Assembly: GCF_013032445.1 (NCBI RefSeq)
Contig: NZ_WQCA01000012.1
Span: 1 to 64,000 of the forward strand
Direction of reading: 5' to 3'
DNA length: 64,000 nucleotides
From: Ruegeria arenilitoris
GTDB taxonomy: Bacteria; Pseudomonadota; Alphaproteobacteria; Rhodobacterales; Rhodobacteraceae
Shown here: positions 12,392-28,515 of the stretch, piece after piece
Position numbering within the stretch: the first letter of the stretch is position 1
How the letters are laid out: each line of letters begins with the position of its first letter
Made by a program: the position numbers and the translations under genes
Notes under the pieces: generated by a model
The model's database searches: none
Told to the model about the DNA's origin: nothing
The model's input: only the letters and a program-made list of their open reading frames with translations

Positions 12392-13369
12392 ATGTTCGCA
12401 TATATCGTCCGAAGGATGTTCCAATCCGTGATCGTGCTGCTGGTCGTGGGTCTGGTGGCCTTTTCGATGTTCCGCTTTGTCGGTGATCCGATCGACAACA
12501 TGCTGGGGCAGGAACGCACACAGGCCGACATTGATCGGCTGCGCACCGAACTGGGATTGGATCAACCCTTTCCAGTGCAGTATTTCAAGTTCCTCAAAGG
12601 CGCGGTTCAGGGCGATTTTGGCGTCTCGTACCGTCAGGGGCGGCCCGTCTCGACGATCCTGATCGAACGTGCGCCTGCCACGCTCGAGCTGGCCTTTGTT
12701 TCGGGCTTTCTGGCCATCACCATGGGCATTGCGCTGGGCGTGTTTACGGCGATCCGACGACAAGGGATCGCCGCGAATGTGATCATGACCGTGTCGCTGC
12801 TAGGGGTGTCGCTGCCGACCTTCCTGATCGGGATTTTGCTGATCTATGTGTTTTCCATCGAATTGGGTTGGCTACCCAGCTTTGGCCGAGGGGAGACGGT
12901 GAAGATCGGCAACTGGTCCACCGGGTTCCTGACGGCATCGGGGCTGAAGGCGCTGATCCTGCCGGCGATCACACTGGGTCTGTATCAGATGACGCTGATC
13001 ATGCGGTTGGTGCGGTCAGAAATGCTCGAAGTGATGCGCGCCGACTATGTCCGCTTTGCCCGCGCCCGAGGGCTGTCGGACCGGGTGATCAATTTCCGCC
13101 ACGCCCTGAAAAACACACTGGTGCCGGTGATTACGATCACCGGTCTGCAATTGGGCTCGATCATCGCCTTCGCCATCATCACCGAGACGGTGTTCCAGTG
13201 GCCCGGCGTCGGTCTGCTGTTCATCAACGCGATCCAGTTTGTTGATATCCCCGTCATGGCCGCTTATCTGATGCTGATCTCGGTCATGTTCGTGACGATC
13301 AACCTGATTGTCGATCTGCTTTACTATGCCATTGACCCGCGCATGCGTGTCGACGCGAGGGCCACATGA
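12392..13369 (+). CDS. ABC transporter permease, DppB type
   Basis: This inner-membrane permease of 325 residues has about six membrane segments and the binding-protein-dependent transport signature in the last cytoplasmic loop: MRADYVRFARARGLSDR followed by VINFRHALKN. The N-terminus, with YIVRRMFQSVIVLLVVG, is the usual DppB start. The stop overlaps the DppC-type gene by 4 bases (ATGA). An in-frame GAGGGAAACGA precedes the ATG. Confidence 0.93.
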   Translation: MFAYIVRRMFQSVIVLLVVGLVAFSMFRFVGDPIDNMLGQERTQADIDRLRTELGLDQPFPVQYFKFLKGAVQGDFGVSYRQGRPVSTILIERAPATLELAFVSGFLAITMGIALGVFTAIRRQGIAANVIMTVSLLGVSLPTFLIGILLIYVFSIELGWLPSFGRGETVKIGNWSTGFLTASGLKALILPAITLGLYQMTLIMRLVRSEMLEVMRADYVRFARARGLSDRVINFRHALKNTLVPVITITGLQLGSIIAFAIITETVFQWPGVGLLFINAIQFVDIPVMAAYLMLISVMFVTINLIVDLLYYAIDPRMRVDARAT

Positions 13370-14316
13370 CCGATACTATCGAAACCCCGCCGTCCGCGCC
13401 CAAATCGCGTTTCGCCAAGTTCTGGGACAGCGATTTTGCGTGGTCGTTCCGGCATTCTCCGGTGGCCATGGTGGCATCGCTTGTGGTGGTTATCCTTGTG
13501 CTGGCCGCCATCTTTGCCCCGCTGATCGCGCCCTATAATCCGTTCGACCCGGCGACGCTGAACCTGATGAACGGGTTTACGCCTCCCGGCACGCCGAACG
13601 CCTTCACGCAGGAAACCTTCTTGCTGGGCACAGACGATCAGGGCCGCGACGTGTTCTCGACCATCCTGTATGGCTTGCGCATTTCACTGTTCGTGGGGGC
13701 CTCAGCGGTGTTGCTGGCGATGATCATCGGGGTGATCCTTGGCCTCATGGCCGCCTATTATGGTGGTTGGATTGAGACCCTAATCATGCGGATTGCCGAT
13801 GTGCAGCTGACCTTTCCGGCCATACTGGTCGCCATGCTGATCTTCGGCATCGCCAAGGGGGTGACGCCGCCGGAATACCGCAATGCGATGGCAATTTATG
13901 TGTTGATCATCGCGATTGCCCTGTCCGACTGGGTGCAGTTCGCCCGTGTCGTGCGCGGTGCGGCACTGGTGGAAAAGAACAAAGAATACGTTCAGGCCGC
14001 TCGTCTGATCGGACGCGGGTCTATCCCGATAATGTTCCGTCACATCCTGCCCAACGTGCTCAGCCCGGTTCTGGTGATCGCCACCATTTCCTTGGCGCTG
14101 GCGATCATTGCTGAGGCGACGTTGAGTTTCCTCGGCGTCGGGGCGCCTCCGACCCAACCTTCGCTGGGCACGCTGATCCGCATCGGGCAGGGCTTCCTGT
14201 TCTCGGGCGAGTGGTGGATCCTGTTCTTCCCGGCCTGCACCCTTCTGGCGCTGGCCCTGTCTGTGAACCTGCTGGGCGACTGGCTGCGCGATGCGCTGAA
14301 CCCCAAGCTGCGGTGA
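13366..14316 (+). CDS. ABC transporter permease, DppC type
   Basis: This partner permease has 316 residues. It has an N-terminal cytoplasmic tail, a first membrane segment near residues 33-55, the typical FLLGTDDQGRDVFS stretch before the core membrane domain, and the EAA loop EYVQAARLIGRGS. It forms the channel with the preceding DppB-type subunit. The overlapping start and the 4-base gap to the ATPase gene show one operon. Confidence 0.93.
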   Translation: MTDTIETPPSAPKSRFAKFWDSDFAWSFRHSPVAMVASLVVVILVLAAIFAPLIAPYNPFDPATLNLMNGFTPPGTPNAFTQETFLLGTDDQGRDVFSTILYGLRISLFVGASAVLLAMIIGVILGLMAAYYGGWIETLIMRIADVQLTFPAILVAMLIFGIAKGVTPPEYRNAMAIYVLIIAIALSDWVQFARVVRGAALVEKNKEYVQAARLIGRGSIPIMFRHILPNVLSPVLVIATISLALAIIAEATLSFLGVGAPPTQPSLGTLIRIGQGFLFSGEWWILFFPACTLLALALSVNLLGDWLRDALNPKLR

Positions 14317-14320
14317 TTTC

Positions 14321-16030
14321 ATGAGCCTTCTGACGATCAATGACCTAACGGTCGAATTCCCGACCCGCCGCAAACTGTTCACCGCTGTGGACCATGTGGA
14401 CCTGTCGGTGGAACCCGGCGAAATCCACGGGCTGGTGGGTGAATCCGGCGCCGGCAAATCCACCATCGGTTCCGCCATCATGGGGCTGCTGGACCGCCCC
14501 GGCCGCATTGCCAGCGGCACCATCCGGCTGAGCGGCGATCAGATCAGCGGACTCGACGCCGAGGCGATGCGCGGTCTGCGCGGCAAGAAGATCTCGATGA
14601 TCTTTCAGGACCCGCTGACCTCGCTGAACCCTCTGTTCACCGTGCGTGAGCAGTTGGTTGAGACGATTCAAGCCCATCTGGGCGGGTCCGAGGCCGAGGC
14701 CAGCAAGCGTGCGCGTGACCTGATCGACCGCGTCGGCATCCCCGATCCGGACACGAGGCTGGACCAATACCCGCACCAATTCTCGGGCGGGATGCGGCAG
14801 CGTGTGGTGATTGCGCTGGCGCTGTGTACCGAACCGGACGTGATCATCGCGGATGAGCCGACCACGGCGCTGGATGTCTCGGTGCAGGCGCAGATTCTGG
14901 ACCTGATCAAGGAGTTGGCGCGCGAACGGCAGGTGGGCGTCATTCTGATCACCCACGATATGGGGGTGATCGCCGATACCACCGACAAGGTGACGGTGAT
15001 GTATGCGGGCAAGGTGGTGGAAACCGGCCCCACGTCTCAGGTCATGGGCCAGCCCAGCCACGAATACACCAAGTCCCTGATCGCCGCCGTTCCGCGCCCG
15101 ACGTTGAAGCTGCACCGCTTTCCGCAGATCAGCTATGGCGGGCGCGAAACGCGGTTTGCCATCGAGGACATGGCCCGCCATTGGCCCAAGGTGGACAACG
15201 ACACCACCAAACCGGTGTTCGAGATTCGCAACCTGACCAAGAAGTTCCTGCAGCGCAAAGGTTTGCTGCCCTGGGATCGCACTTATTTCACCGCTGTGGA
15301 TGATGTCAGCTTTGACATCCGTGCGGGTGAAGTGTTCGGCGTGGTGGGCGAGTCCGGCTCGGGCAAGTCCACCGTCGCGCGAATGATCGCCGGGCTTTAC
15401 CCGGTGGACGGTGGAACCATCACATTTGAGGGGCAGGTGGTCAGCGATCTGAACAACAAGGCTGCGCTGGATGCCTATCGCAAGAACATCCAGATGATCT
15501 TTCAGGACCCGTATTCCTCGCTCAATCCCCGGATGCGGGTGGACGATATCGTGGCCGAACCGATCCGCCATCACCGGCTGATGGACGGCGCAGATATCAA
15601 GCGCCGTGTGGATGAACTGCTGGATCAGGTCGGACTGGGCCATGAGGCCGGGTTGAAATACCCGCATGAATTCTCGGGCGGTCAACGTCAGCGAATTTCC
15701 ATCGCCCGCGCACTGGCCACGCAGCCGCGTTTCCTGATCTGTGACGAACCGACCAGCGCGCTGGATGTGTCCATTCAGGCGCAGATCCTGAACATACTGA
15801 AGGACCTGCAAGAGCATCTAGGCCTGACCCTGCTGTTCATCAGCCATGACCTGCCCGTGGTGCGCCAGATGTGCGACCGGGTTGCGGTGATGAAACAGGG
15901 CAAGGTGGTCGAGTTGCAGGAGACCAACGCGTTGTTCGCCAACCCCCAGACCGACTATGCCAGCGAATTGCTGCGGCTGATGCCGAGGCTGGACGATCTG
16001 TCGACCGAAGGTCTCAGCGCCGAAGTCTGA
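14321..16030 (+). CDS. ABC transporter ATP-binding protein, fused DppD-DppF type
   Basis: This protein of 569 residues carries both ATPases of the peptide importer in one chain. Domain 1 has GESGAGKST, signature SGGMRQR and DEPTTALDVS. Domain 2 has GESGSGKST, signature SGGQRQR and DEPTSALDVS. Each domain is followed by the oligopeptide-type C-terminal stretch (HEYTKSLIAAVPRP after the first; TDYASELLRLMPR at the end). The fusion resembles GsiA and YejF. It completes a full importer with the two permeases and two binding proteins upstream. Confidence 0.93.
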   Translation: MSLLTINDLTVEFPTRRKLFTAVDHVDLSVEPGEIHGLVGESGAGKSTIGSAIMGLLDRPGRIASGTIRLSGDQISGLDAEAMRGLRGKKISMIFQDPLTSLNPLFTVREQLVETIQAHLGGSEAEASKRARDLIDRVGIPDPDTRLDQYPHQFSGGMRQRVVIALALCTEPDVIIADEPTTALDVSVQAQILDLIKELARERQVGVILITHDMGVIADTTDKVTVMYAGKVVETGPTSQVMGQPSHEYTKSLIAAVPRPTLKLHRFPQISYGGRETRFAIEDMARHWPKVDNDTTKPVFEIRNLTKKFLQRKGLLPWDRTYFTAVDDVSFDIRAGEVFGVVGESGSGKSTVARMIAGLYPVDGGTITFEGQVVSDLNNKAALDAYRKNIQMIFQDPYSSLNPRMRVDDIVAEPIRHHRLMDGADIKRRVDELLDQVGLGHEAGLKYPHEFSGGQRQRISIARALATQPRFLICDEPTSALDVSIQAQILNILKDLQEHLGLTLLFISHDLPVVRQMCDRVAVMKQGKVVELQETNALFANPQTDYASELLRLMPRLDDLSTEGLSAEV

Positions 16031-16147: not shown

Positions 16148-19100
16148 ATGTCTCAGGACCTGAGGGACTGGCTAGGCGCGCTTGGACTTTCCGAATACGC
16201 GCAAGCCTTTTTGGATAACAAGATTGATTTCGCAATTCTGCCCGATCTGACGGGCGAAGACCTGATCGAAATCGGAGTGACCGCCGTCGGAGATCGCCGC
16301 AGGCTGCTGCGCGCGATATCTGAACTTGAGACGGTTGAAGCCGTTCAACCGTACGAACCAGAAGCACCGCTGGAGCCTGCCAAGCGGCAGGTGACTGTGA
16401 TGTTTGCCGATCTTAGCGGCTTTACTCGCCTGACCAGCGAGCTGGACGCTGAGGACATGCACGCGCTGCTGAACGCTTTTTTTTCCAAAGTCGATCACGT
16501 GGTCGAGAAATTCGGCGGCCGGATCGACAAGCATATCGGCGACGCAGTCATGGCCGTGTTCGGCGCGCCGATTTCTCACACCAATGACACCGAGCGAGCG
16601 GCGCGGGCAGCGCTGGAAATTCACGCGGTTCTGCCCAGCCTGAACCCGCCGGTTTCCTGCCATATCGGCATCGCCTCGGGTCAGGTGATCGCCAGCAACA
16701 CCGGCAGTCAGGCGCATACGGAATACACGGTGACTGGCGACGGCGTGAACCTAGCCTCGCGTATCACCGACATGGCCGTGCCGGGCGAAACCTTTGTTTC
16801 ACATGACATTCAGCGTGCGTTAGGGCCGCTTTTCGTCGGTGAGTCCATGGGCAAGAAGGATATCAAGGGGCTGAACGCACCCATCGAGCTGTGGCGTTTG
16901 GATCGTTTGGCACGCAACATCCGGTCGCGCCGGCACCGCTTTGTTGGACGCGAGCGTGAGTTGTCTCTGTTTTCAGCCACGTTCGACCGTTGCCAGCAGC
17001 ATGGCAAGGGCGAGGTTCATATCGTTCTGGGTGAACCCGGGATTGGCAAGACCCACCTATCCGAACAAGTGGCCGAGATGGCCGATGCACTGAATTACTC
17101 GATCCACAACGGCGTCGTGATGGATTTTGGTGCGCGTGAGGGGCACTCGGCCATTCAATCTATTGCCCGCAGTATTCTGGGCCTTGAGGCTGCGGATGAC
17201 GCCACCACTGGCGCGGCGATGGCGCAGGAGGCGGTGGCCAAGGGCTGGGTATCGCCTTCAAATGCCACCCATTTGAACGCACTGCTGGAACTGGAGCAGG
17301 ACCCGGGTCTGGCCGAGGTTTATGCAGTGATGGACAACGCCACCCGCCTGCGGGGTCGGCGGCAGGTTATTGATGAGTTGATCGCCGCACGCAGCCGTGA
17401 AGCGCCGATGCTGATCCAGATCGAGGATATCCACTGGGCCGCGCCGGATATCCTGACGGCCTGCGCCCATATCGCCGCCACCACGCGAGATTTACCCTGC
17501 GTCTTGCTGATGACCAGCCGCGTCGAAGGCGACCCAATCAATCGCGAATGGCAGATGAGCACGGACGGCGCGCTGATTTCAAAACTGGAACTGGCGCCAA
17601 TGGGCGAGGCTCAAGCCCGGCAACTGGTCGAAGAATTCACCGGTATCGATCCCGAGCTTCTGGATGCATGTGTGCAACGCGCCGGGGGTAACCCGCTGTT
17701 TTTGGAGCAGTTACTACGCAATATCGATGTACTGAAACGCGAATCCGTGCCCGGCAGCATCCAGGGGATTGTGCAGTCGCGGCTGGATGCGCTGGATCGG
17801 TCCAGTCGGGCCGCAATTCAGGCGGCCTCGGTGCTGGGGCAGCGGTTCTCGCCCGAGGTGCTGAACTTTGTTCTGGGTGAAGGGCATCTGGATACTTCGA
17901 CGCTGATCCGCTCGGCCCTGATCCGCGAGGCCGGGACTGATCTGATGTTTGCCCACGCACTGATCCGCGACGGGTCTTATGCAACGCTGGTCAAGTCGGA
18001 GCGTGCAAGGCTGCATCGTCAGGCTGCGAAATGGTTCGAAGATCGTGACGCCACCTTGCGGGCGCAGCATCTGGATCGGGCAGGCGCAACCAATGCTGCG
18101 CAGGCCTATCTGGATGCAGCCGAGAACTTGATCCAGGCCTTTCAGTTCGACGATGCCAGCCCGCTGATCGAGCGAGCGCTGGAACTGCCCGCGCCGTCCG
18201 GGGTGCGGTTTGATCTGTACTGTGCGCGGGGTGAGACGCACCGATTGCAGGGGTTATCGGATGACGCCCTGCGCGAATTCAAAGAGGCCGCAGATCTGGC
18301 CGAGACCGATGAGCAGGTTAGCCGGGCCCATATCGGGTTGGCGCAGGCGGCACGGCAGGCCAGCCTGTACAAAGACGCACTGCAAAGCCTCGACACTGCC
18401 GAGATCGCCGCAGAGCGGTGTGGGTCTGAGCGGGACATCGCTCAAATCAATTACGTGCGCGGCAACGTCTATTTCCCGCTGGGCCGGGTCGAAGACGCGC
18501 TTCGAAGCAATGAAAAGGCTCTAACACTGGCCAGAAAGCTGGAATCCGCCCGGTTGGAGGTTGGCGCGCTTAGCGGGTTTGGCGATGCTAATTTCATGAA
18601 CGCAACAATGCAGACCGCCGCCGGGTTCTATACTCAGGCAGTTGAACGGGCGCGTGAAAAGGGGCTGGTGCGAGACTTGGCCGCGAACCTGCACAACCTC
18701 AGCGTAGCACGCAGCTATACCGGCGATGTGGCGCAGGGTAAGCGGGACGCGCAGGAAGCCATAGAGGTTTCCCAGAAGTACTTTGCCTTTGTCCCGGAAT
18801 GCGTGGCGCAGACCTGTCTGGGCGTGGCGCATACGTTTCTGGGCGAACTGGATCAGGCGCTTGAGACCTTCACAGTCTCAGCCGAGATCGCCAACCGCGT
18901 CGGGGCTAAACGGCTTGAGGCGCAGGCGCTGGAGCATTTGGCCCGTACACAGGTCTATGCAGGGCGGTTGGATCAGGCGCGTGAGACAGGCGAGCATGCC
19001 GTTGAGATCGCCTTGGAACACGGTCGCAACTTCGTCGGGCCAAAGGCACTGTCAGCGCTCGCCATGGCGGAAACAGATCCTAATAAGCAGGATCAACACC

Positions 19101-19426
19101 TGAAACTGGGCGCTCAGATCATCGCCGAGGGCTGCGTGGGCCATAGCCATCTGCATTTCTATCCTGATGCCAGCGCTGTCATGTTGGCGCGGCAGGAATG
19201 GGACAGGGCAACGGAATACGCGGATGCGCTGGCCAAATTCACCGCTGAAGAACCCCTGCCAATGGTTGATCTGTCGATTCATCACGCAAAGGTTCTGGCC
19301 GCGTGCGGCGGCTGGGGTATTCCGATGTCCGCGCATGAGGACTTTGACGCGCTGGACACACGGTTCGCCGAGATGGGCGTTACGCAGTCTCTGGTCGGCA
19401 ACTGGACCACGCATGAGAGGAGCTGA
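16148..19426 (+). CDS. SAM-domain class III adenylate/guanylate cyclase with AAA ATPase and TPR regions
   Basis: This multidomain signalling protein has 1092 residues. A SAM-like domain spans about 4-64. A class III cyclase domain spans about 80-250, with metal aspartates D88 (FADLSGF) and D132 (KHIGDAV), K128, and N201/R205 in GDGVNLASR, so it should be catalytically competent. An AAA/NACHT-like ATPase region from about 263 has Walker A GEPGIGKT (295-302). Helical TPR-like repeats fill about 620-1090. The layout matches the SAM-cyclase-ATPase-TPR family, in which ATPase and TPR parts are thought to sense signals or bind partners. No membrane segment is present. The stop codon touches the start of the channel-like gene, so the two are co-translated. 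Confidence 0.9.
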   Translation: MSQDLRDWLGALGLSEYAQAFLDNKIDFAILPDLTGEDLIEIGVTAVGDRRRLLRAISELETVEAVQPYEPEAPLEPAKRQVTVMFADLSGFTRLTSELDAEDMHALLNAFFSKVDHVVEKFGGRIDKHIGDAVMAVFGAPISHTNDTERAARAALEIHAVLPSLNPPVSCHIGIASGQVIASNTGSQAHTEYTVTGDGVNLASRITDMAVPGETFVSHDIQRALGPLFVGESMGKKDIKGLNAPIELWRLDRLARNIRSRRHRFVGRERELSLFSATFDRCQQHGKGEVHIVLGEPGIGKTHLSEQVAEMADALNYSIHNGVVMDFGAREGHSAIQSIARSILGLEAADDATTGAAMAQEAVAKGWVSPSNATHLNALLELEQDPGLAEVYAVMDNATRLRGRRQVIDELIAARSREAPMLIQIEDIHWAAPDILTACAHIAATTRDLPCVLLMTSRVEGDPINREWQMSTDGALISKLELAPMGEAQARQLVEEFTGIDPELLDACVQRAGGNPLFLEQLLRNIDVLKRESVPGSIQGIVQSRLDALDRSSRAAIQAASVLGQRFSPEVLNFVLGEGHLDTSTLIRSALIREAGTDLMFAHALIRDGSYATLVKSERARLHRQAAKWFEDRDATLRAQHLDRAGATNAAQAYLDAAENLIQAFQFDDASPLIERALELPAPSGVRFDLYCARGETHRLQGLSDDALREFKEAADLAETDEQVSRAHIGLAQAARQASLYKDALQSLDTAEIAAERCGSERDIAQINYVRGNVYFPLGRVEDALRSNEKALTLARKLESARLEVGALSGFGDANFMNATMQTAAGFYTQAVERAREKGLVRDLAANLHNLSVARSYTGDVAQGKRDAQEAIEVSQKYFAFVPECVAQTCLGVAHTFLGELDQALETFTVSAEIANRVGAKRLEAQALEHLARTQVYAGRLDQARETGEHAVEIALEHGRNFVGPKALSALAMAETDPNKQDQHLKLGAQIIAEGCVGHSHLHFYPDASAVMLARQEWDRATEYADALAKFTAEEPLPMVDLSIHHAKVLAACGGWGIPMSAHEDFDALDTRFAEMGVTQSLVGNWTTHERS

Positions 19427-20590
19427 ATGAGCATCGAAAAGAAGGTTTGGTGGATTTCCGGTGCCCTGACCTTTGGTCTGGCGGTGCTGCTCTTCAGGCT
19501 TCTGGTCGCGCTGAATCATTTCGAAGGCGACCCGACGCAGCTACCGGATCAGGCTTCGGTCGATGGTTACCTGCAAAAGCTGGGAAATGCGCCCGAATAC
19601 CGAGTGAAGACCGGGATTTTCATCAAATCCTTCAGCTTTGTCGGTGCCAGCGACGTGCACGTCAGCGGCTATATCTGGCAGCACTACGAAGACGGTCGTC
19701 ATGACGCGATCAAACCCGCCGAAGGCGAGGTCGGATTCATCCTGCCCGAAGCCACCGATGCCGCGAGTGGCCTGATCGAAGAGGTCTATCGCATGGAACA
19801 GGACGGATCAGAATTGATCGGATGGTATTTCGAACAAACCCTGCGGCAGAGCTTTGACTACACCAGCTATCCGTTCGACCACAAAACTGTCTGGGTCCGG
19901 TTCTGGCCCGGTGAGTTCGACGTGAATGTTGCTCTAATTCCTGATTTTTCGGCCTACCCTGCCACCGGACCCGAGGACATATTTGGCATCGACCCCCGTA
20001 TCGTCATGGGCACATGGGAGCGGGAGAATACCTATTTCGACTATCGTCTGTCCGACCTGGATACCACGCTGGGCATCGGCGAAAACGAGTTCCAGACCAA
20101 CCTGCCGGAACTTCACTATAACTTCGTCATCAAGCGGAACTTTGGGAATGCTTTCATTGTCCACATGATCCCGTTGATTGTTGTGACGATGCTGCTGTTC
20201 GGCGCAGTGATGACCGTGACCCGCCGCCCCAATCTGGTGGAACGGCACGATTTCAGCACCTCCAGCGTGATCGGCACGTGCTCGGTTCTGTTCTTCGTAA
20301 TCCTGCTGGCCCATGTCCAACTGCGCGAAGGCTTTGCCGGATCGCCGGTGATCTACATGGAATCGTTCTTTTTCCTGATGTATTTCCTGCTGCTGGCTGT
20401 CTCGATCAACACCTACCTGTTCGCGTCCGAGGCGGTGCCCTCGCTGCGGTTCATCCACTTCAAGGACAACCTGTTCCCAAAGGCCGCGTTTTGGCCTTTT
20501 GTCCTGCTGTGTATGGTGGCGATCACGGCCTATAACCTCAGCCTCAAGGCCGACCCCGAGGATGAGACCGTGATCGAGATGCAAAATTAG
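19427..20590 (+). CDS. Pentameric ligand-gated ion channel-like membrane protein
   Basis: A protein of 387 residues with an N-terminal membrane segment (about 9-29), a periplasmic domain rich in beta-type sequence (about 35-240), then four membrane segments (about 241-262, 278-298, 308-331, 353-371). Residues 146-161 contain YPFDHKTVWVRFWP, close to the YPFD element of the Cys-loop/Pro-loop in pentameric ligand-gated channels. The stretch before the first pore-domain helix ends in HMIPLIV, with the proline typical of M1. This is recognition by architecture and short motifs; I cannot test the fold. The extra N-terminal helix is unusual. The gene directly abuts the cyclase gene (TGA then ATG) with GAGAGGAG as ribosome site. 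Its end overlaps the convergent gene by 4 bases. Confidence 0.65.
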   Translation: MSIEKKVWWISGALTFGLAVLLFRLLVALNHFEGDPTQLPDQASVDGYLQKLGNAPEYRVKTGIFIKSFSFVGASDVHVSGYIWQHYEDGRHDAIKPAEGEVGFILPEATDAASGLIEEVYRMEQDGSELIGWYFEQTLRQSFDYTSYPFDHKTVWVRFWPGEFDVNVALIPDFSAYPATGPEDIFGIDPRIVMGTWERENTYFDYRLSDLDTTLGIGENEFQTNLPELHYNFVIKRNFGNAFIVHMIPLIVVTMLLFGAVMTVTRRPNLVERHDFSTSSVIGTCSVLFFVILLAHVQLREGFAGSPVIYMESFFFLMYFLLLAVSINTYLFASEAVPSLRFIHFKDNLFPKAAFWPFVLLCMVAITAYNLSLKADPEDETVIEMQN

Positions 20591-23500
20591 GCCGGAGGCT
20601 GGTAGCCCGGTTTGGGCGTGCCTGTGGCCATATCCAACGTGTATTCCGCAACAATCCCTGATGTGCCCTCTTCCCATTGATCCAGATACTTGGTGGGATG
20701 CGCAATCACATAGGTATAGGCAGGTTTTTTCACGCCGTTGATCAGCACATTGATCCGTTTGCGTACATAGACATTCTCGGGAGAACCGGGGCCGTGATAG
20801 CCTTCCAGTTTGTCCAGCTCCTTCATCCCGCTGGATGAGACGCGATAGACCTCGCCTTTCACGGCTTTGCCGCGGCCTTTCTGGTCGACCAGCGTGGCCA
20901 TGCGGTGCAGGAAGCCGCAGTTCGGGTTGTCGCAATGCGGCTCGTTCGGGACGATCAGAGGCATCCGCTGCCGGGTTATGGCCTCGCCTACGAAATCATC
21001 CAGCACCTCGGTATGGGCATCGTGGTTCGGGAACCCTTTCTTGAGCGAACCGTAGGTGAAGTAGAGATAGGTCTTTTCCCGATCCTCAATCAGATCGTTT
21101 TCGTCCTCTTCCTTTAGTTCGGTCAGGGTATGGGTGTTGGCCCATTCGTCCAGCATCTCAACGATCTCTTCGGCCAGTTTGATGCCCTTGGTGTTGTTGG
21201 GGTTCTGCAGGAAGTGGATGCAGGAACTGGCGTCGATCCCGTCTGCCCCCAGCAGGACTTCCACCATCTCGACCGAGTTGTTCATCACCGCCACATGCAG
21301 GCTGGTAAAGCCGTGGTCATTCGAGGCGTTGACGTTGATGCCGCGATCAATCAGGGCTTGCGCCGCTTCAAGGTCGGGTTTGCCTTGGTCTACCCCGCTC
21401 TCTTTCATCTCACCTTCGCCGCCTGCTGCGTAATGCAGCAACGTGTCGCCATTGTTGTCGTCAACGATATCGATCCCGGCCATGCCGTTGTCGATAGCCT
21501 GGAACACGCGTTCCCATTGCGTGAAACTGTCCGAGGCGGCGGCTTCTTGCGCCCATTTGCAAATATTGTGTTCCTGATCGGCCAGTTCCTCGAAGGCTTC
21601 GTCCAGCACCTCTATGATCTGATCCGGGGTCGCCATCATGCCGATCCCCATCATGCCGTTCGACAGCCGCCCCTTGCGCGGGCCAACCAGATCGATGCCC
21701 AGATCGCGCAGCTTTTCCACGTTCCGCTGGGTGGTGACGTTATTCCACATGTTGGTGTTGCAGGCCGGGCAGAGGATTGCTGGCTTGTTGCGGTACTGCC
21801 ACGCCACAAAGACCGAGGTCAGCAGGTTGTCGGCAATCCCGTTGGCGATCTTGCCCATCGTGTTGCAGGTCACCGGTGCCACGATTACGCAGTCCGCCCA
21901 ATCGCACAGCGCCAGATGTGAGGCGCGTAAGGGCATTCCGAATTCGGTATACCGAAAATTCCACTCGTCATCGTCGCGGTAATAGTCGTGATGCGAGATG
22001 TAGTCGTCGATCTTCTTGGGCCGGGTCTTTTTGATATTCCCGGTTTCTTCCTCGACTTCGATATCGCGAAAGAACTTCTCGGCCGAGACAGAGGGGATGA
22101 GCTTGACGTTGTGACCCGCAGCGGTGATCCGCTTGACCAGATCCGGCACCTTATCTGCTGCTGAGGATCCGCAGGCGCAAAGCAGCACATTACGTTTTTC
22201 ACTTGGGGCGTCGGTCAGGCCGCCTTTGGGGTAACCGAAGATGTTTTTGTCGAGGCTGGGGGACTCATGGCGCAGCAAGACCGGCAGTCCAGCCTCTTTC
22301 ACGCGCATCTGAAAACTGCCGTCCAACACAGCGTCGACAATGTCTTGCCGTCTTCCCATGCATTCGCCCTGGAAAAACAGGTAAGGCGGCTTTTCTTTGC
22401 CGGTCATCACCGTCAGCTGCCGCCGCATCTTCATCACATTCGCCCCGTGGCCTTCGATATCGATCAAGCGCGCTGTGGTGATGCCGATGTTGCCCAGCAT
22501 ACTGCGCAGCATATAGGACCACGGGTCTTCGTCCGCATAGAACAGCACGATCTCGTTTTTCAGAACAATGCGGGCGACGTCGGTCGGATCTTCGGGCGGC
22601 TCCTGTTCTTCGATCACCAGCATTGCCGGGCTTTGGACGTCACGCAGACCACGGAATATGTGACCGCGCGGCGCCTGCCAGACCTGCGAGGTGGCCGGGC
22701 TCATATCCACCACGGTCACAATATCAGTTTGCTCATCGTAAGCGATGCAAAGGCACCAGAACTCTTCTAGCAGTGCGGTCTCGCGATACACGTTCTCGGG
22801 CGGACGGATGACTTCGAACCCCAGAACGCGGTTGAAGTCGATATTGATCATCAAATGGCGATCCTGCTTCACATTCAGGCTGTGAAGTTGATCGCGGAAC
22901 CAGTCCTGGGGGGATTGGGCGCCTCCCCCCTTGCGCTTCGCGTAGCTGTGGAAGGTACTGCCCAGATGTACATCGGGGGATTGGCTGAGATAGCGCTGTG
23001 CCAGCGCGTGCATCTCTTTTGCGGTCGACACCCGGCGGACCGCTTCGGTGAAATCGGTTTGGGTCGCGATCAGCAGCTTGTCTTCATCGACTTGCGCATC
23101 GCCCAGAATTGCAAGGCTTTCGGCCAGCACCCCAAGTGAGTTCATGTTCGGACTTGCCCGCCGGAACAGGTTGCGCCGTTTCTTGGGGTCTTTGGCCAGA
23201 TACCGAGTGCTGTCGACATAGTTGCAGTCCTGCTGCAACGTTTGCAGGTTGGTCTTGACCGCCTCGCGTGCCGAGAACCGCAGGATGCCCCGTGACCGCA
23301 TCGAGGTTCCGTCACGATCCGACATTCCGGCCCAGATGCGATCCACAGTGGTGACCCACAGCTTGCCGTATTTCTCGGGGTGCACATCCATCATATGCAC
23401 CAGTCCGGTGCTGGGGTTGCATTTGGCAATGATAGCAAAATGTCCGCCCGGCATGTTTTCCTTGCCATGGGCGACGCCAACCTGAAAATTGGCCACCAGA

Positions 23501-24213
23501 ATGTCGTTGTTACCGCCCAGACGGTTGGACTCGTCGATCGCTTCTAGCAGCAGCTCAACCGAAGTTGTCGCCTCATCCATGAAATAGGCCTGAACCTGCA
23601 CTTTTTCACGCAACCCCTGCGTTTGAATGAATGTACAGGCAACGTCATAGAGTTCACCCAGCGAGATGCCGTCATTCACCACGAACGACGTTGGCAGACC
23701 ACATTCGCGGAAAATGTCGTTCACCTCGCAGCTGAACCCAAGCGCCGACATGCTGAGCGCCGCCGCAGTGACGCTGCAGCAGTTGATGGGTTGCTGGAAA
23801 TTCTGCAGGTGCACGCTGACCAGATCGCCGAACAACGTGTCGTAGCAGGCCTCGCGGATCTTGGTCGGAATTTCGAACCAGTTATTGCTGGAGAGATAGG
23901 CCAGTTTGGTGCCGGGCGTGGCCAGCGCCTCCAAGCTTACCGGGATGTCAAAAATCTCAAGATGTTCTTCGTAGAAGTAATCGCCCGTGTCCGCAGTGGC
24001 CAGCACCGTACCGTCCTGCCGCAGCTGTACCTCACCCCCAAGCACTACATACATACCCTGCGGGGGCAGAACGGTTTCCTCCATCACTTCAAAGCACTCA
24101 AAATGTGGCCTGATGATTGATGGATCATCCGCTGGCAGGATTTCCTGTATCAATGACCATTCGGGTTCGGTTGGTGTGACGGAAATGGTGTTTTCAATTG
24201 GGTCCTTAGGCAC
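20587..24213 (-). CDS. Multidomain thiol-peptide enzyme: cNMP-like / phytochelatin synthase-like / glutaredoxin-like / flavoprotein decarboxylase-like / ankyrin / gamma-glutamylcyclotransferase-like
   Basis: This protein has 1208 residues. I place the start at a GTG (24213), 7 bases after AGGGGAGA; the open frame goes on 28 codons without a ribosome site. In order: a cNMP-binding-like domain (about 30-125, with GDYFYE for the usual FGE and no conserved Arg). A phytochelatin synthase-like peptidase domain (about 136-320) with triad C145 (PINCCSV), H258 (PGGHFA) and D276 (MMDVHP); the 18-residue His-Asp spacing equals that of plant enzymes. A degenerate second lobe (about 430-535). A glutaredoxin-like fold (553-645) with DPWS for CPYC. 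A flavoprotein decarboxylase-like domain (673-875) with H766 and PACNTNMW. Ankyrin repeats (about 920-1025). A GGCT/AIG2-like domain (1048-1172) with YGSL and E1137 in LDKLEGY. Cytoplasmic. I do not know a named protein with this architecture. Confidence 0.85.
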   Translation of the reverse strand: MPKDPIENTISVTPTEPEWSLIQEILPADDPSIIRPHFECFEVMEETVLPPQGMYVVLGGEVQLRQDGTVLATADTGDYFYEEHLEIFDIPVSLEALATPGTKLAYLSSNNWFEIPTKIREACYDTLFGDLVSVHLQNFQQPINCCSVTAAALSMSALGFSCEVNDIFRECGLPTSFVVNDGISLGELYDVACTFIQTQGLREKVQVQAYFMDEATTSVELLLEAIDESNRLGGNNDILVANFQVGVAHGKENMPGGHFAIIAKCNPSTGLVHMMDVHPEKYGKLWVTTVDRIWAGMSDRDGTSMRSRGILRFSAREAVKTNLQTLQQDCNYVDSTRYLAKDPKKRRNLFRRASPNMNSLGVLAESLAILGDAQVDEDKLLIATQTDFTEAVRRVSTAKEMHALAQRYLSQSPDVHLGSTFHSYAKRKGGGAQSPQDWFRDQLHSLNVKQDRHLMINIDFNRVLGFEVIRPPENVYRETALLEEFWCLCIAYDEQTDIVTVVDMSPATSQVWQAPRGHIFRGLRDVQSPAMLVIEEQEPPEDPTDVARIVLKNEIVLFYADEDPWSYMLRSMLGNIGITTARLIDIEGHGANVMKMRRQLTVMTGKEKPPYLFFQGECMGRRQDIVDAVLDGSFQMRVKEAGLPVLLRHESPSLDKNIFGYPKGGLTDAPSEKRNVLLCACGSSAADKVPDLVKRITAAGHNVKLIPSVSAEKFFRDIEVEEETGNIKKTRPKKIDDYISHHDYYRDDDEWNFRYTEFGMPLRASHLALCDWADCVIVAPVTCNTMGKIANGIADNLLTSVFVAWQYRNKPAILCPACNTNMWNNVTTQRNVEKLRDLGIDLVGPRKGRLSNGMMGIGMMATPDQIIEVLDEAFEELADQEHNICKWAQEAAASDSFTQWERVFQAIDNGMAGIDIVDDNNGDTLLHYAAGGEGEMKESGVDQGKPDLEAAQALIDRGINVNASNDHGFTSLHVAVMNNSVEMVEVLLGADGIDASSCIHFLQNPNNTKGIKLAEEIVEMLDEWANTHTLTELKEEDENDLIEDREKTYLYFTYGSLKKGFPNHDAHTEVLDDFVGEAITRQRMPLIVPNEPHCDNPNCGFLHRMATLVDQKGRGKAVKGEVYRVSSSGMKELDKLEGYHGPGSPENVYVRKRINVLINGVKKPAYTYVIAHPTKYLDQWEEGTSGIVAEYTLDMATGTPKPGYQPPA

Positions 24214-24598
24214 GTCTGTTCTCCCCTGAACTTTGCCGTGAAACACATCAAAGAACCAACGCGGTATTTGGTGCCTGAGTCTGGCTGCAGCGGTCACACG
24301 AAATTTCTTGACCTACCCGACGGGGCATTCTGCGCTGGCCGGGCCGTCAGATCGCTGGCATTTGCGCGAACAAAATAGCCCAATTGGTCATACCGTATCG
24401 CGTTTAGATACAAAAATCACGGATGTTCTTGATTTGACTGCACGAATTAACAAAGGCCAAACCTCAACGTTTTTCTAAGCTTTAGTGTCAGATTTCTGAC
24501 AGCGCCCTCATCATAGGGAAAAGCTATAGTATCTGGAAAAAACGGACTCATGCAAATAGCTGTTGCCTATGCCAATTCCGTGAACAAGGCCGCTAATC
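24214..24598. promoter_or_regulatory. Divergent promoter region with a palindrome and a GntR-like site
   Basis: This 385-base gap lies between the multidomain gene and the transaminase gene. It holds a perfect inverted repeat TGTCAGA-TT-TCTGACA (24486-24501) and, 23 bases further, a TATAGT -10-like box (24525-24530) with no good -35, which suggests activator control of the transaminase gene. Another small dyad, GGT-CAT-ACC (24386-24394) within ATTGGTCATACC, resembles FadR/PdhR-type GntR sites. I see no small gene. Confidence 0.45.
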
Positions 24599-25774
24599 AT
24601 GTCTTCCTTTCCCCGCCCCGAACTCGGAGAGCCCTACCTGCTGACGCCAGGGCCGCTGACGACTTCGTATTCCGTGAAACAGGCGATGCTGTGCGACTGG
24701 GGCAGCTGGGATGGCGATTTTCGCGCAATGACGGCCGAGTTGCGTTCGCGGCTTCTGGATCTGCTGGGCGCCGGTAAAGAAGACTATGACTGCGTGCCCA
24801 TGCAAGGGTCGGGCACCTTCGCGGTCGAGGCGATGCTGAACTCGATGATCCCACCCGACGGCAAGGCACTGGTGCTGGCCAATGGCGCCTATGGCAAACG
24901 CGCGGCGCAGACGCTGGCCTATACCGGGCGCGGACATGTGGTGCTGGACAAGGGTGACTACCTGCCGCCCCTAGGGGCCGAGGTGGCGCAGATACTGGCC
25001 GATGATCCGGCGATCACCCATGTGGTTGCGATCCACTGTGAAACCAGCTCGGGCATCCTGAACCCGCTGCATGAGATTTCTCAGGCCACGGCGGCGGCGG
25101 GACGCAAGCTGCTGATCGACAGCATGTCGGCCTTTGGTGCGATCCCGCTGCAACCAAGTGAGTACTCGTTCGAGGCGCTGGTCTCTTCGGCCAACAAATG
25201 CATCGAAGGCGTGCCGGGCTTTGGCTTTGTTCTGGCCCGCAAGTCGGCGCTGGCCGAAGCGAAAGGCAACTGCCCCTCGCTCAGCCTGGACCTGTACGCG
25301 CAATGGGACGCGATGGAGAAAACCGGCCAGTGGCGCTTTACCCCGCCGACCCATGTGGTTGCGGCCTTTCTGCAGGCGCTGACCGAACATGCCGCCGAAG
25401 GTGGCGTGGCTGGGCGCGGTGCCCGCTATAAGCGCAACCGCGATGTCATGGTGTCGGGGAGGCGTGATCTGGGGTTTGAGACCCTGCTGTCGGATGAATG
25501 GCTGTCGCCGATCATCGTCACCTTCTTCTGCCCGGCAGACCCGAATTTTGACTTTGGGCGGTTCTACGATCTGATGCAAGATCAAGGCTTTATCATCTAT
25601 CCCGGCAAACTGACCGTGGTCGAGAGCTTCCGGGTCGGTTGCATCGGTCGCATGGACGCGGACGTGATGCGCGCCGTGGTCGCCGCTGCGAAACAGGCCT
25701 TGGTCGAGATGAATGTCGCCAGTGCCGCCCCGCCGGCCGAGGCGGTCGCTTCGCGCATGGCGCAGATCGCTTAA
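24599..25774 (+). CDS. phnW: 2-aminoethylphosphonate--pyruvate transaminase-like class V aminotransferase
   Basis: A PLP enzyme of 391 residues. It carries the PhnW hallmarks TPGPLTTSYSVKQAM (16-30), MQGSGTFAVEA (68-78), HCETSSGILNP (146-156) and the PLP lysine K200 in SSANKCIEGVPGFGF. PhnW moves the amino group of 2-aminoethylphosphonate to pyruvate, giving phosphonoacetaldehyde and alanine. No phosphonatase or phosphonoacetaldehyde dehydrogenase of the usual type lies beside it. The next genes belong to lysine/aminoadipate breakdown, so a different omega-amino substrate is possible. The start is the ATG at 24599. Confidence 0.8.
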   Translation: MSSFPRPELGEPYLLTPGPLTTSYSVKQAMLCDWGSWDGDFRAMTAELRSRLLDLLGAGKEDYDCVPMQGSGTFAVEAMLNSMIPPDGKALVLANGAYGKRAAQTLAYTGRGHVVLDKGDYLPPLGAEVAQILADDPAITHVVAIHCETSSGILNPLHEISQATAAAGRKLLIDSMSAFGAIPLQPSEYSFEALVSSANKCIEGVPGFGFVLARKSALAEAKGNCPSLSLDLYAQWDAMEKTGQWRFTPPTHVVAAFLQALTEHAAEGGVAGRGARYKRNRDVMVSGRRDLGFETLLSDEWLSPIIVTFFCPADPNFDFGRFYDLMQDQGFIIYPGKLTVVESFRVGCIGRMDADVMRAVVAAAKQALVEMNVASAAPPAEAVASRMAQIA

Positions 25775-25778
25775 TGCA

Positions 25779-25801
25779 TTTTGACGAAAATATCGTCAAA
25801 A
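25779..25801. promoter_or_regulatory. Perfect palindrome upstream of saccharopine dehydrogenase gene
   Basis: TTTTGACGA (25779-25787) and TCGTCAAAA (25793-25801) flank 5 bases. A further half-site TTTCGTCAAG follows about 25 bases downstream. It starts right after the transaminase stop and lies about 90 bases before the next start, as an operator for a dimeric regulator of lysine catabolism would. The T-rich right side could also let it act as a hairpin. Confidence 0.55.
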
Positions 25802-25893
25802 TGACGTAACTTTCGGCGTTTTCGTCAAGATACCCCCTGCGGATCGAACAGCCCGCGCTTCATACTTTCAATAAACGAAAGAGGAGGCGCGTT

Positions 25894-27000
25894 TTGAGCT
25901 GGAATATTTGTGTCATAGGGGCAGGCAAGATCGGTCAGATGATCGCCAGCCTGCTGCAAGCATCCCCCAACTACTCGGTCACCGTGGCGGATCGCGATCT
26001 GGCCGCTCTGTCGGTGCTGAACAAGCAGGGGATTGCAACTCGGCAAATTGATGTGGGGGATGAGGCGCAACTGGCGCAGGGGCTGGCCGAGTTCGATGCC
26101 GTGATCTCGGCGGCTCCGTTCTTTCTGACGCCCAAGATTGCCAAGGCCGCCAAGACAGCAGGCGCACATTACTTCGACCTGACCGAAGATGTCGCCGCCA
26201 CCAATGCGGTGCGTGAACTGGCCGAGGACAGCAAAACCGCCTTCATGCCGCAATGCGGTCTGGCGCCGGGCTTTGTCGGCATTGCCGGGGCTGCACTAGC
26301 GTCCGAGTTTGACGATCTCGACAGCTTGCATATGCGGGTGGGGGCCTTGCCGCTCTATCCGACCAACGCGCTGAAATACAATCTGACATGGTCCACCGAC
26401 GGGCTGATCAACGAGTATTGCAACCCCTGCGATGCCATCGTGAACGGCGAGCGGGTGAAAACCGCACCTCTGGAAGACTACGAGGTGCTGGGCCATGACG
26501 GGGTGGAGTATGAGTGTTTCAACACCTCGGGCGGGCTGGGCACCTTGCCGGAAACTCTGGAAGGCAAGGCGCGGGCAGTGTCGTACCGCTCAATCCGCTA
26601 TCCCGGCCATTGCGATATCCTGAAGCTGCTGCTCAAGGATCTGGGGCTGGAGCGCCGCCGTGATCTGCTGAAAGACATCTTTGAAACTGCCCTGCCGCGC
26701 ACGGATCAGGATGTGGTTCTGGTTTATTGCACCGCCAAAGGCATGATCGACGGGGCCCTGCGCGAGAAATCCCTGATCAACAAAAGCTTTGCCCGCACCA
26801 TCAACGGGCAGGTCTGGAGCGCCATTCAGGTGACTACCGCCGCGGGCGTTCTGGGCGTGGTTGATCTGATGCGCACGGGGGCTTTGCCCAGCACAGGGTT
26901 TGTCCGGCAGGAGCAGGTGAACTTGCCCGACTTCCTCAACACCGAATTTGGCCGGCTCTATCGCGCCGGTGACGTCACCCAACAGAATAAAGCGGCCTGA
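25894..27000 (+). CDS. Saccharopine dehydrogenase family protein
   Basis: An NAD(P)-dependent oxidoreductase of 368 residues with a Rossmann motif VIGAGKIGQ at residues 7-15 and the saccharopine dehydrogenase C-terminal region ([14 protein letters not shown], then [12 protein letters not shown]). With the antiquitin-type aldehyde dehydrogenase 3 bases downstream, the likely role is splitting saccharopine to glutamate and 2-aminoadipate 6-semialdehyde in lysine degradation. The start is a TTG at 25894, supported by GAGGAGG 6 bases upstream; no ATG fits. A lysine-ketoglutarate reductase is not visible nearby, so the pathway is incomplete in this window. Confidence 0.85.
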
Positions 27001-27003
27001 GAT

Positions 27004-28515
27004 ATGAAAGACATCGTAATGACAGCCCAAACCACTCTCGCAAATCTGGACCTGACCGAGGCGGAGCTGACCGGCGGTACGCTGGCCGTGCGGTCTCCCA
27101 TCGACGGCAACCTGCTGGCTGAAGTGCATGAGACGCCCGACGCCGACATGGATGCTGTCTTTGCCCGCTCCAAAGCGGCTTTTAAAGCATGGCGCACTGT
27201 ACCGGCCCCGCGTCGGGGCGAACTGATCCGTCTGCTGGGCGAGGAACTGCGCGCCGCCAAGGATGATCTGGGCGCGCTGGTCAGCTGGGAGGCGGGCAAG
27301 ATCACCTCGGAAGGCCTCGGCGAAGTTCAAGAGATGATAGACATCTGCGACTTTGCCGTGGGCCTGTCGCGGCAGCTGTATGGCCTGACAATTGCATCCG
27401 AACGCCCCGGCCACCGGATGATGGAGACCTGGCACCCGGCGGGGCCGGTTGGCGTGATTTCGGCCTTCAATTTCCCAGTTGCGGTCTGGTCGTGGAATGC
27501 GGCAATTGCGCTGGTCTGCGGGGACACGGTCATCTGGAAGCCGTCCGAGAAAACCCCGCTGACCGCGATGGCCTGCCAGAAGATCTTCGAACGCGCGTTG
27601 GCCCGGTTTGGCGATGCGCCCGAAGGCTTGTTGCAAACATTGATCGGTGGCGCCGCGCTGGGCGAGGCGTTGGTGGCCAGCGAGGATGTGCCGGTAATCT
27701 CGGCCACAGGTTCGACCCGCATGGGCCGCGCGGTTGCGCCCATCGTGGCACAGCGGTTCGGCAAGTGTATTCTGGAGCTGGGCGGCAACAACGCGATGAT
27801 CGTTGGTCCCTCAGCCGATCTGGAAATGGCGGTGCGGGCGATTGTGTTCTCGGCCGTCGGCACCGCAGGCCAACGCTGCACCACGCTGCGCCGTCTGATC
27901 GTGCATAAATCGATCCGCGCGGAATTGGTGAGTCGTTTGAAAAAGGCTTATGCCGGTCTGCCCATCGGCAATCCACTGATCGAGGGTACGCTGATCGGCC
28001 CGCTGGTGGATGAAGCCTCGGGTGCGGCTATGACAGCGGCCCTGAAAGCGGCTGAAGCTGAGGGTGGTACCGTATTCGGCGGCAACCGGGTAACCGAAGG
28101 TGTGCCCGCCGGCGTCTACATGCAGCCTGCCATCGTCGAGATGCCTGGCCAGACCGCAACAGTGAAGACCGAGACCTTTGCCCCGATCCTCTACGTCATG
28201 GAATACAGTGATTTCGACGAAGCCATCGAGATTCAGAATGACGTGCCGCAGGGCCTGTCGTCTTGCGTGTTCACCCTGAATATGCGCGAGGCCGAGCAAT
28301 TCCTGACCGCAGCCGGGTCCGATTGTGGCATTGCCAACGTTAATATCGGGCCTTCGGGGGCCGAGATCGGCGGTGCCTTTGGGGGCGAGAAGGAAACCGG
28401 TGGCGGGCGCGAAAGCGGATCGGACGCGTGGAAAGCCTATATGCGGCGCCAGACCAACACCGTGAACTACTCGGCCGAGTTGCCGCTGGCGCAAGGCGTC
28501 AAGTTCGACATCTGA
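27004..28515 (+). CDS. Antiquitin-type aldehyde dehydrogenase (aminoadipate-semialdehyde dehydrogenase)
   Basis: A 503-residue ALDH7-type enzyme. Catalytic C292 is in GTAGQRCTTLRR, the general base E258 is in LELGGNNAMIV, and NAD-binding FNFPVAVWSWNAA is near 156-168. These match antiquitin rather than generic ALDH. It would oxidise 2-aminoadipate 6-semialdehyde to 2-aminoadipate, the step after saccharopine dehydrogenase, and the genes are 3 bases apart. ALDH7 enzymes are also tied to osmotic stress. The start may be 27004 or the ATG at 27019; neither has a strong ribosome site. Confidence 0.88.
   Translation: MKDIVMTAQTTLANLDLTEAELTGGTLAVRSPIDGNLLAEVHETPDADMDAVFARSKAAFKAWRTVPAPRRGELIRLLGEELRAAKDDLGALVSWEAGKITSEGLGEVQEMIDICDFAVGLSRQLYGLTIASERPGHRMMETWHPAGPVGVISAFNFPVAVWSWNAAIALVCGDTVIWKPSEKTPLTAMACQKIFERALARFGDAPEGLLQTLIGGAALGEALVASEDVPVISATGSTRMGRAVAPIVAQRFGKCILELGGNNAMIVGPSADLEMAVRAIVFSAVGTAGQRCTTLRRLIVHKSIRAELVSRLKKAYAGLPIGNPLIEGTLIGPLVDEASGAAMTAALKAAEAEGGTVFGGNRVTEGVPAGVYMQPAIVEMPGQTATVKTETFAPILYVMEYSDFDEAIEIQNDVPQGLSSCVFTLNMREAEQFLTAAGSDCGIANVNIGPSGAEIGGAFGGEKETGGGRESGSDAWKAYMRRQTNTVNYSAELPLAQGVKFDI

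Follow-up and report, generated by a model that had tools for sequence, protein, structure and literature searches.

A seven-part fusion protein of Ruegeria arenilitoris with a predicted route from glutathione-like peptides to a small thiol

The gene at 20587..24213 on the minus strand of the window, the 64,000-nucleotide stretch of the Ruegeria arenilitoris genome analyzed here, raises the question of whether a single polypeptide could break down a peptide such as glutathione step by step. It encodes 1208 amino acids, from an ATG at 24213 to a stop codon that ends at 20587. A GTG at 24297 is an unlikely alternative start on sequence grounds, because the corresponding frames of two relatives (L001 and L002) reach a stop 7 codons upstream of the conserved Met. 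On the plus strand, the interval 20587-24213 contains 12 stops. The first-pass annotation had described one protein of 1208 residues and named a sequencing error that joined separate genes as what would refute it. An error of this kind can be dismissed: the match lies within one open frame in 38 of 38 related loci, two of which (L032 and L035) are truncated where their contigs begin, and the sequence is selectively constrained, as described below. The fusion is single-copy in the window's genome, where the sole further match is to its flavoprotein part, in a CoaBC-sized frame.

The 38 loci with fusion relatives, 47-91% identical, were identified by a scan of genome contigs. Ruegeria accounts for 26 of them (one still filed as Silicibacter, an older name). 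The remaining 12 are Seohaeicola, Roseovarius, two Rhodobacteraceae MAGs, three Rhodospirillaceae MAGs, two uncultured alphaproteobacteria, one SAR116 single cell and two gammaproteobacterial MAGs (Aestuariirhabdus and Halieaceae). The distribution is patchy: the fusion is found in 17 of 390 whole genomes of the order and in 15 of 25 within the genus, counting the window's own, and a two-lobe profile run across the phylum identified one genome in 398, the window's own. Among viral contigs there were 74 pattern matches, none a relative; the one plasmid record that matched is a CoaBC match. The fusion is under purifying selection. Whole-gene dN/dS is 0.06-0.11 for the 5 pairs computed and does not exceed 0.21 in any of the seven segments, ranging from 0.025-0.045 in the first phytochelatin synthase (PCS) lobe up to 0.21 in the glutaredoxin part, with synonymous sites close to saturation in some segments. 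The domain content is the same across the 30 members scanned, except for one that lacks a Phytochelatin match, and the search for homologues with the same domain order, proposed at first pass, found that order constant in an alignment of 16 sequences (two of them truncated). In a tree of 36 proteins the 2 gammaproteobacterial and 6 Rhodospirillaceae/SAR116-type members group apart from the Rhodobacteraceae with support 1.0.

Profiles and an AlphaFold model of the fusion together identified seven parts, the number given in the text of the first-pass annotation; the six of its title is wrong. The PCS, HFCD, GGACT, glutaredoxin and ankyrin folds were recovered by the profile and structure searches proposed there. 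The same five recur when the predicted structure is compared with known ones; the VIA-align rows each cover a single domain. By profile and structure comparison the three catalytic families do match successive bonds of gamma-Glu-Cys-Gly, as first proposed. Our preferred reading, to which we give an even chance, is that the fusion is an assembly line taking glutathione or a glutathione-like peptide down to a two-carbon aminothiol. We infer, as the first-pass annotation did, that the pathway would be self-contained.

The first PCS-like lobe covers residues 118-318 (23260..23862, minus strand) and matches Pfam Phytochelatin (PF05023) over residues 140-309 (1.5e-9, 37.8 bits against a cut-off of 24.9). 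This match, with structure comparison, upholds the earlier assignment to a phytochelatin synthase-like peptidase. The proposed triad of C145, H258 and D276 stands for its last two members, which are 18 residues apart and present in 44 of 44 aligned sequences. The nucleophile is instead C146, invariant in 14 of 14 aligned rows; C145 is Ser in 2 of 43 sequences. Q140 (43/43) and K281 and Y282 (45/45) are likewise constant where aligned, and D301 and R308 belong to the same lobe. In the AlphaFold model C146 is predicted to begin a helix, in a block of pLDDT 68, with H258 and D276 on adjacent strands as in a papain-like fold. In the first step the lobe would attack gamma-Glu-Cys-Gly through C146, freeing Gly and leaving gamma-Glu-Cys, as the fold and the conserved triad suggest. 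The Arg that handles the second substrate in AtPCS1 (R152) has no counterpart here: A248-H249 occupies that spacing in 44 of 44 sequences, and the alignment contains no conserved Arg within residues 240-257. Substrate handling would therefore differ from that of plant PCS, and the lobe is filed as a PCS-like peptidase rather than a phytochelatin synthase. A phytochelatin synthase or metal-tolerance enzyme with the other domains as regulators is accordingly very improbable, even with the Phytochelatin match in 29 of 30 members, and the catalytic residues of the HFCD and GGACT domains are invariant, so that these parts do not look like passengers. The degenerate second lobe (residues 340-545; 22579..23196, minus strand) retains D503 and has no triad Cys or His. 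The AlphaFold model predicts the same order of 11 main secondary-structure elements as in the first lobe, and hhalign aligns the two with an E value of 0.0043 and a probability of just 7.9; the claim of a second lobe is thus borne out more by secondary structure than by sequence.

The HFCD domain, resembling FMN-dependent cysteine decarboxylases, lies at residues 665-885 (21559..22221, minus strand). The earlier assignment to this family is confirmed by a Pfam Flavoprotein match at 675-869 (9.1e-28), by structure comparison, and by the catalytic His (H766, 49/49) and N-x-x-M motif (N819 and M822, 48/48), the latter within PACNTNMW; model blocks around these motifs have pLDDT 35-69. The coaBC_dfp profile (TIGR00521) scores 119.5 bits, under its cut-off of 219.7. 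HFCD enzymes act on a C-terminal Cys. As the second step, an FMN-binding HFCD domain would decarboxylate the Cys newly exposed by the first, giving gamma-Glu-cysteamine or its enethiol. Which of these results would depend on what replaces the reducing Cys of AtHAL3a (C175); LACG reads LSNG here, and Asn (N852) occupies that place in 48 of 48 sequences. With this Cys missing, the second step may stop at the enethiol. A rather unlikely alternative builds on this point: an HFCD domain like EpiD or the proposed TdaF would leave an enethiol or thioaldehyde, and the protein would make a reactive sulfur donor from glutathione instead of cysteamine. In agreement with this, a crystal structure of the C175S mutant of AtHAL3a contains pantothenoylaminoethenethiol, according to the title of entry 1mvn, and EpiD, TvaF and MrsD are among the HFCD domain matches. 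For tropodithietic acid synthesis, action of TdaF on a sulfur adduct has been proposed in a source (PMC7497051) that also considers reduction to cysteamine. However, two Cys that AtHAL3a lacks at these places, C783 (49/49) and C818 (48/48), are invariant in or beside the HFCD motifs of the fusion family and could stand in for C175, and a scan of nine neighbouring genes in the window showed nothing that resembles a sulfur-accepting biosynthetic cluster.

The last catalytic domain (residues 1040-1200; 20614..21096, minus strand) had been called gamma-glutamylcyclotransferase-like. It is a cyclotransferase by profile, but its nearest relative is GGACT (2e-10) and not GGCT (0.065). The Pfam GGACT match spans residues 1051-1176 (2.1e-14, 54.6 bits against a cut-off of 22.8) and the domain carries a YGSL motif; the catalytic Glu, E1137, is present in 47 of 47 sequences and aligns to E82 of human GGACT. 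An inserted C1094-x4-C1099-x3-H1103 (20905-20934, minus strand), perhaps a metal site to judge from its sequence, is equally invariant (47/47). GGACT acts on gamma-glutamylamines, and the decarboxylated intermediate would therefore suit this domain better than gamma-Glu-Cys itself. Because gamma-Glu-cysteamine is such an amine, decarboxylation would come before cyclotransfer; the order of steps in the preferred assembly line follows from this preference and that of HFCD enzymes. In the third step the domain would cyclise the gamma-Glu, releasing 5-oxoproline and cysteamine or its oxidised form.

The glutaredoxin-like domain (residues 546-645; 22279..22578, minus strand) was correctly recognised as a fold, by profile and structure; Pfam Glutaredoxin matches 10 of 30 members, at best 1.5e-4. 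P610 is retained and DPWS replaces CPYC, with D563, W565 and S566 in 45 of 45 sequences and P564 in 44 of 45. With no active-site Cys, a redox-active glutaredoxin is ruled out. Like the degenerate PCS lobe, this Cys-less domain probably serves to hold or sense glutathione. The ankyrin repeats noted at first pass (approximately residues 886-1012; 21178..21558, minus strand) are verified by a Pfam Ank match above cut-off and by structure comparison. They and the cNMP-binding-type fold at the N terminus (approximately residues 12-117; 23863..24180, minus strand) are probably regulatory or scaffold elements. Pfam cNMP_binding gives only 0.14 for the window's protein, but has hits in 14 of 30 members of the family, the best at 9.4e-7; the fold had been rightly named. 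By profile the domain also resembles PKG/PKA chains; the best value of 1.6e-7 is for a whole chain and adds up a number of weak stretches, which individually give 1.6 to 1.9e4. A phosphate-cassette-like FYEE retains a Glu of the cassette, and the canonical phosphate-binding Arg is missing, with V, M, I or L in its place in all 14 aligned rows that have the domain. Canonical cAMP control through this domain was attractive given the linked cyclase gene described below, but for want of this Arg is not claimed.

We know of no organism in which one polypeptide converts glutathione to cysteamine. Neither this domain combination nor such a route appeared among the literature matches listed by our searches, whose coverage leaves out most subscription journals. 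The parts belong to known families; their combination and the predicted route are, within the range of these searches, undescribed. A split form of the pathway was looked for around the PCS genes in 11 other genomes (398 searched), and no HFCD or GGACT gene was found within 12 kb (7 genomes) or approximately 3.6 kb (4 genomes), by an insensitive check whose family profiles recovered just 5 of those 11 PCS genes; the pathway is thus without support from a split version. If the step order is right, the fusion would represent a compact multi-step catalyst and add a new branch to the sulfur metabolism of ocean bacteria.

The comparison of genes neighbouring the fusion covered those of at least 120 codons. 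Opp/Gsi-type peptide ABC transporter genes lie at 12392-16030 (plus strand), upstream of gene A (see below). In NCBIfam the ATPase scores highest with the glutathione transporter GsiA (575.5 bits, under the cut-off of 1077), and the ATPase cluster is present in 14 of the compared loci. Such a transporter could supply glutathione-like peptides. Upstream of the fusion, at 24599-28515, are a PhnW-type 2-aminoethylphosphonate transaminase, a saccharopine-dehydrogenase-like gene and a piperidine-6-carboxylate dehydrogenase, all variable between genomes. Other enzymes are the neighbours in Rhodospirillaceae/SAR116-type loci, a point that weighs against the preferred reading. A MetE-like protein flanks the fusion in L026 (456-7750) and L031, together with a class I/II aminotransferase and an SDR in L026, and a SAM-methyltransferase-like protein does so in L025 (7020-7844).

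Two further genes, absent from the first-pass annotation, point towards the fusion. Gene A (16148..19426, plus strand; 1092 amino acids) combines a SAM domain, a class III cyclase, an AAA domain and TPR repeats. It abuts gene B (19427..20590, plus strand; 387 amino acids), which is convergent with the fusion, their stops overlapping by 4 bases. A gene of gene A's cluster is found in 31 of 38 fusion loci and a gene B homologue in 30 of 38, counts that come mostly from closely related loci. In distant genomes A can be called orthologous only tentatively, since the A genes of L022, L036 and L060 are just 31-36% identical to the window's A, while a paralogue at C6 in the window's own genome reaches 37%. 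Of three motif patterns that we take to be those of cyclases, the window's A has 3, L022 2, L061 1 and L060 none. With the tree rooted at its midpoint, loci with genes A and B lie on either side of the root; their linkage to the fusion would thus be old, subject to this doubt about A. Gene B is in two frames in L012 (11639-12832) and gene A in L038 (6274-9511), which suggests that these partner genes may be degrading where the fusion keeps its open frame. The best NCBIfam match of gene A, a TOMM-system kinase/cyclase at 143.5 bits (far under the 705.75 cut-off), is consistent with a quite different substrate for the fusion. The PCS lobe would trim the Gly of a glutathione S-conjugate, or cleave a RiPP-like peptide that the ankyrins hold, with the HFCD and GGACT domains completing the product. 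EpiD, MrsD and TvaF, HFCD relatives named in entry titles, have peptides as substrates. HFCD chemistry requires a free thiol, however, which a conjugate lacks, and the GGACT domain has no obvious role on a ribosomal peptide. We regard this reading as improbable, even though PCS proteins are described as processing glutathione S-conjugates (PMC3561135).

The assembly line to cysteamine, our preferred reading, would give gene B a possible ligand. Gene B had no useful match to Pfam or, by sequence, to the PDB, and just its model revealed a channel fold, with a beta-rich outer domain, four TM helices, a loop acid and a pre-TM1 base; at a modest pLDDT of 64.2, this model points to a putative pentameric ligand-gated channel. 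Relatives of gene B (38-43% identical) occur without the fusion in four genomes (L067, L068, L069 and L070, one of the four only 83% complete) out of 8 with a match among 295 searched in the family, so the channel has other settings too. For ELIC, the ligand with the strongest response at low concentration is given as cysteamine, with an EC50 of 0.365 mM (PMC3119659), and by this analogy one might speculate that the predicted product gates the neighbouring channel. However, the ligand domain is expected outside the membrane and the enzyme presumably in the cytosol, and gene B is only approximately 12% identical to ELIC. A small-amine signalling circuit of marine bacteria, in which one polypeptide makes cysteamine, the product opens channel B, and ion flux and the linked cyclase complete the circuit, is a distinctly doubtful extension. 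If true, it would provide a natural source for an agonist of an ELIC-type channel. The linked channel could make natural ligands of bacterial pentameric channels directly testable.

Gene B and the three catalytic parts can be set against characterized systems. Gene B is 8-17% identical to GLIC, ELIC and DeCLIC and differs in its linkage to a cyclase and the fusion. AtPCS1 is described as having the triad, an oxyanion Gln 6 residues before the Cys, and Lys and Tyr 5 and 6 residues beyond the Asp (PMC3855540); the first lobe resembles it in the Cys-His-Asp triad, in Q140 as oxyanion Gln and in K281-Y282 at matching spacing. The nearest solved relative of the lobe is Alr0975/NsPCS, a primitive phytochelatin synthase (peptidase C83) of approximately 21% identity, which serves to convert GSH to gamma-Glu-Cys (PMC12065762). 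The fusion differs from it in adding a degenerate copy of the lobe and five other domains, and in having no conserved Arg before the His. Compared with the gamma-glutamylamine cyclotransferase GGACT (1vkb, 3jub), the last domain is fused and contains the invariant C-x4-C-x3-H insertion. The HFCD domain, 34% identical to AtHal3, shares with AtHAL3a, EpiD and TvaF the active-site His, Asn and Met and a PxxNxxMW-type motif, and is set apart from them by PACN for PAMN, an extra Cys at 783, Asn for the reducing Cys and its place in a seven-domain chain.
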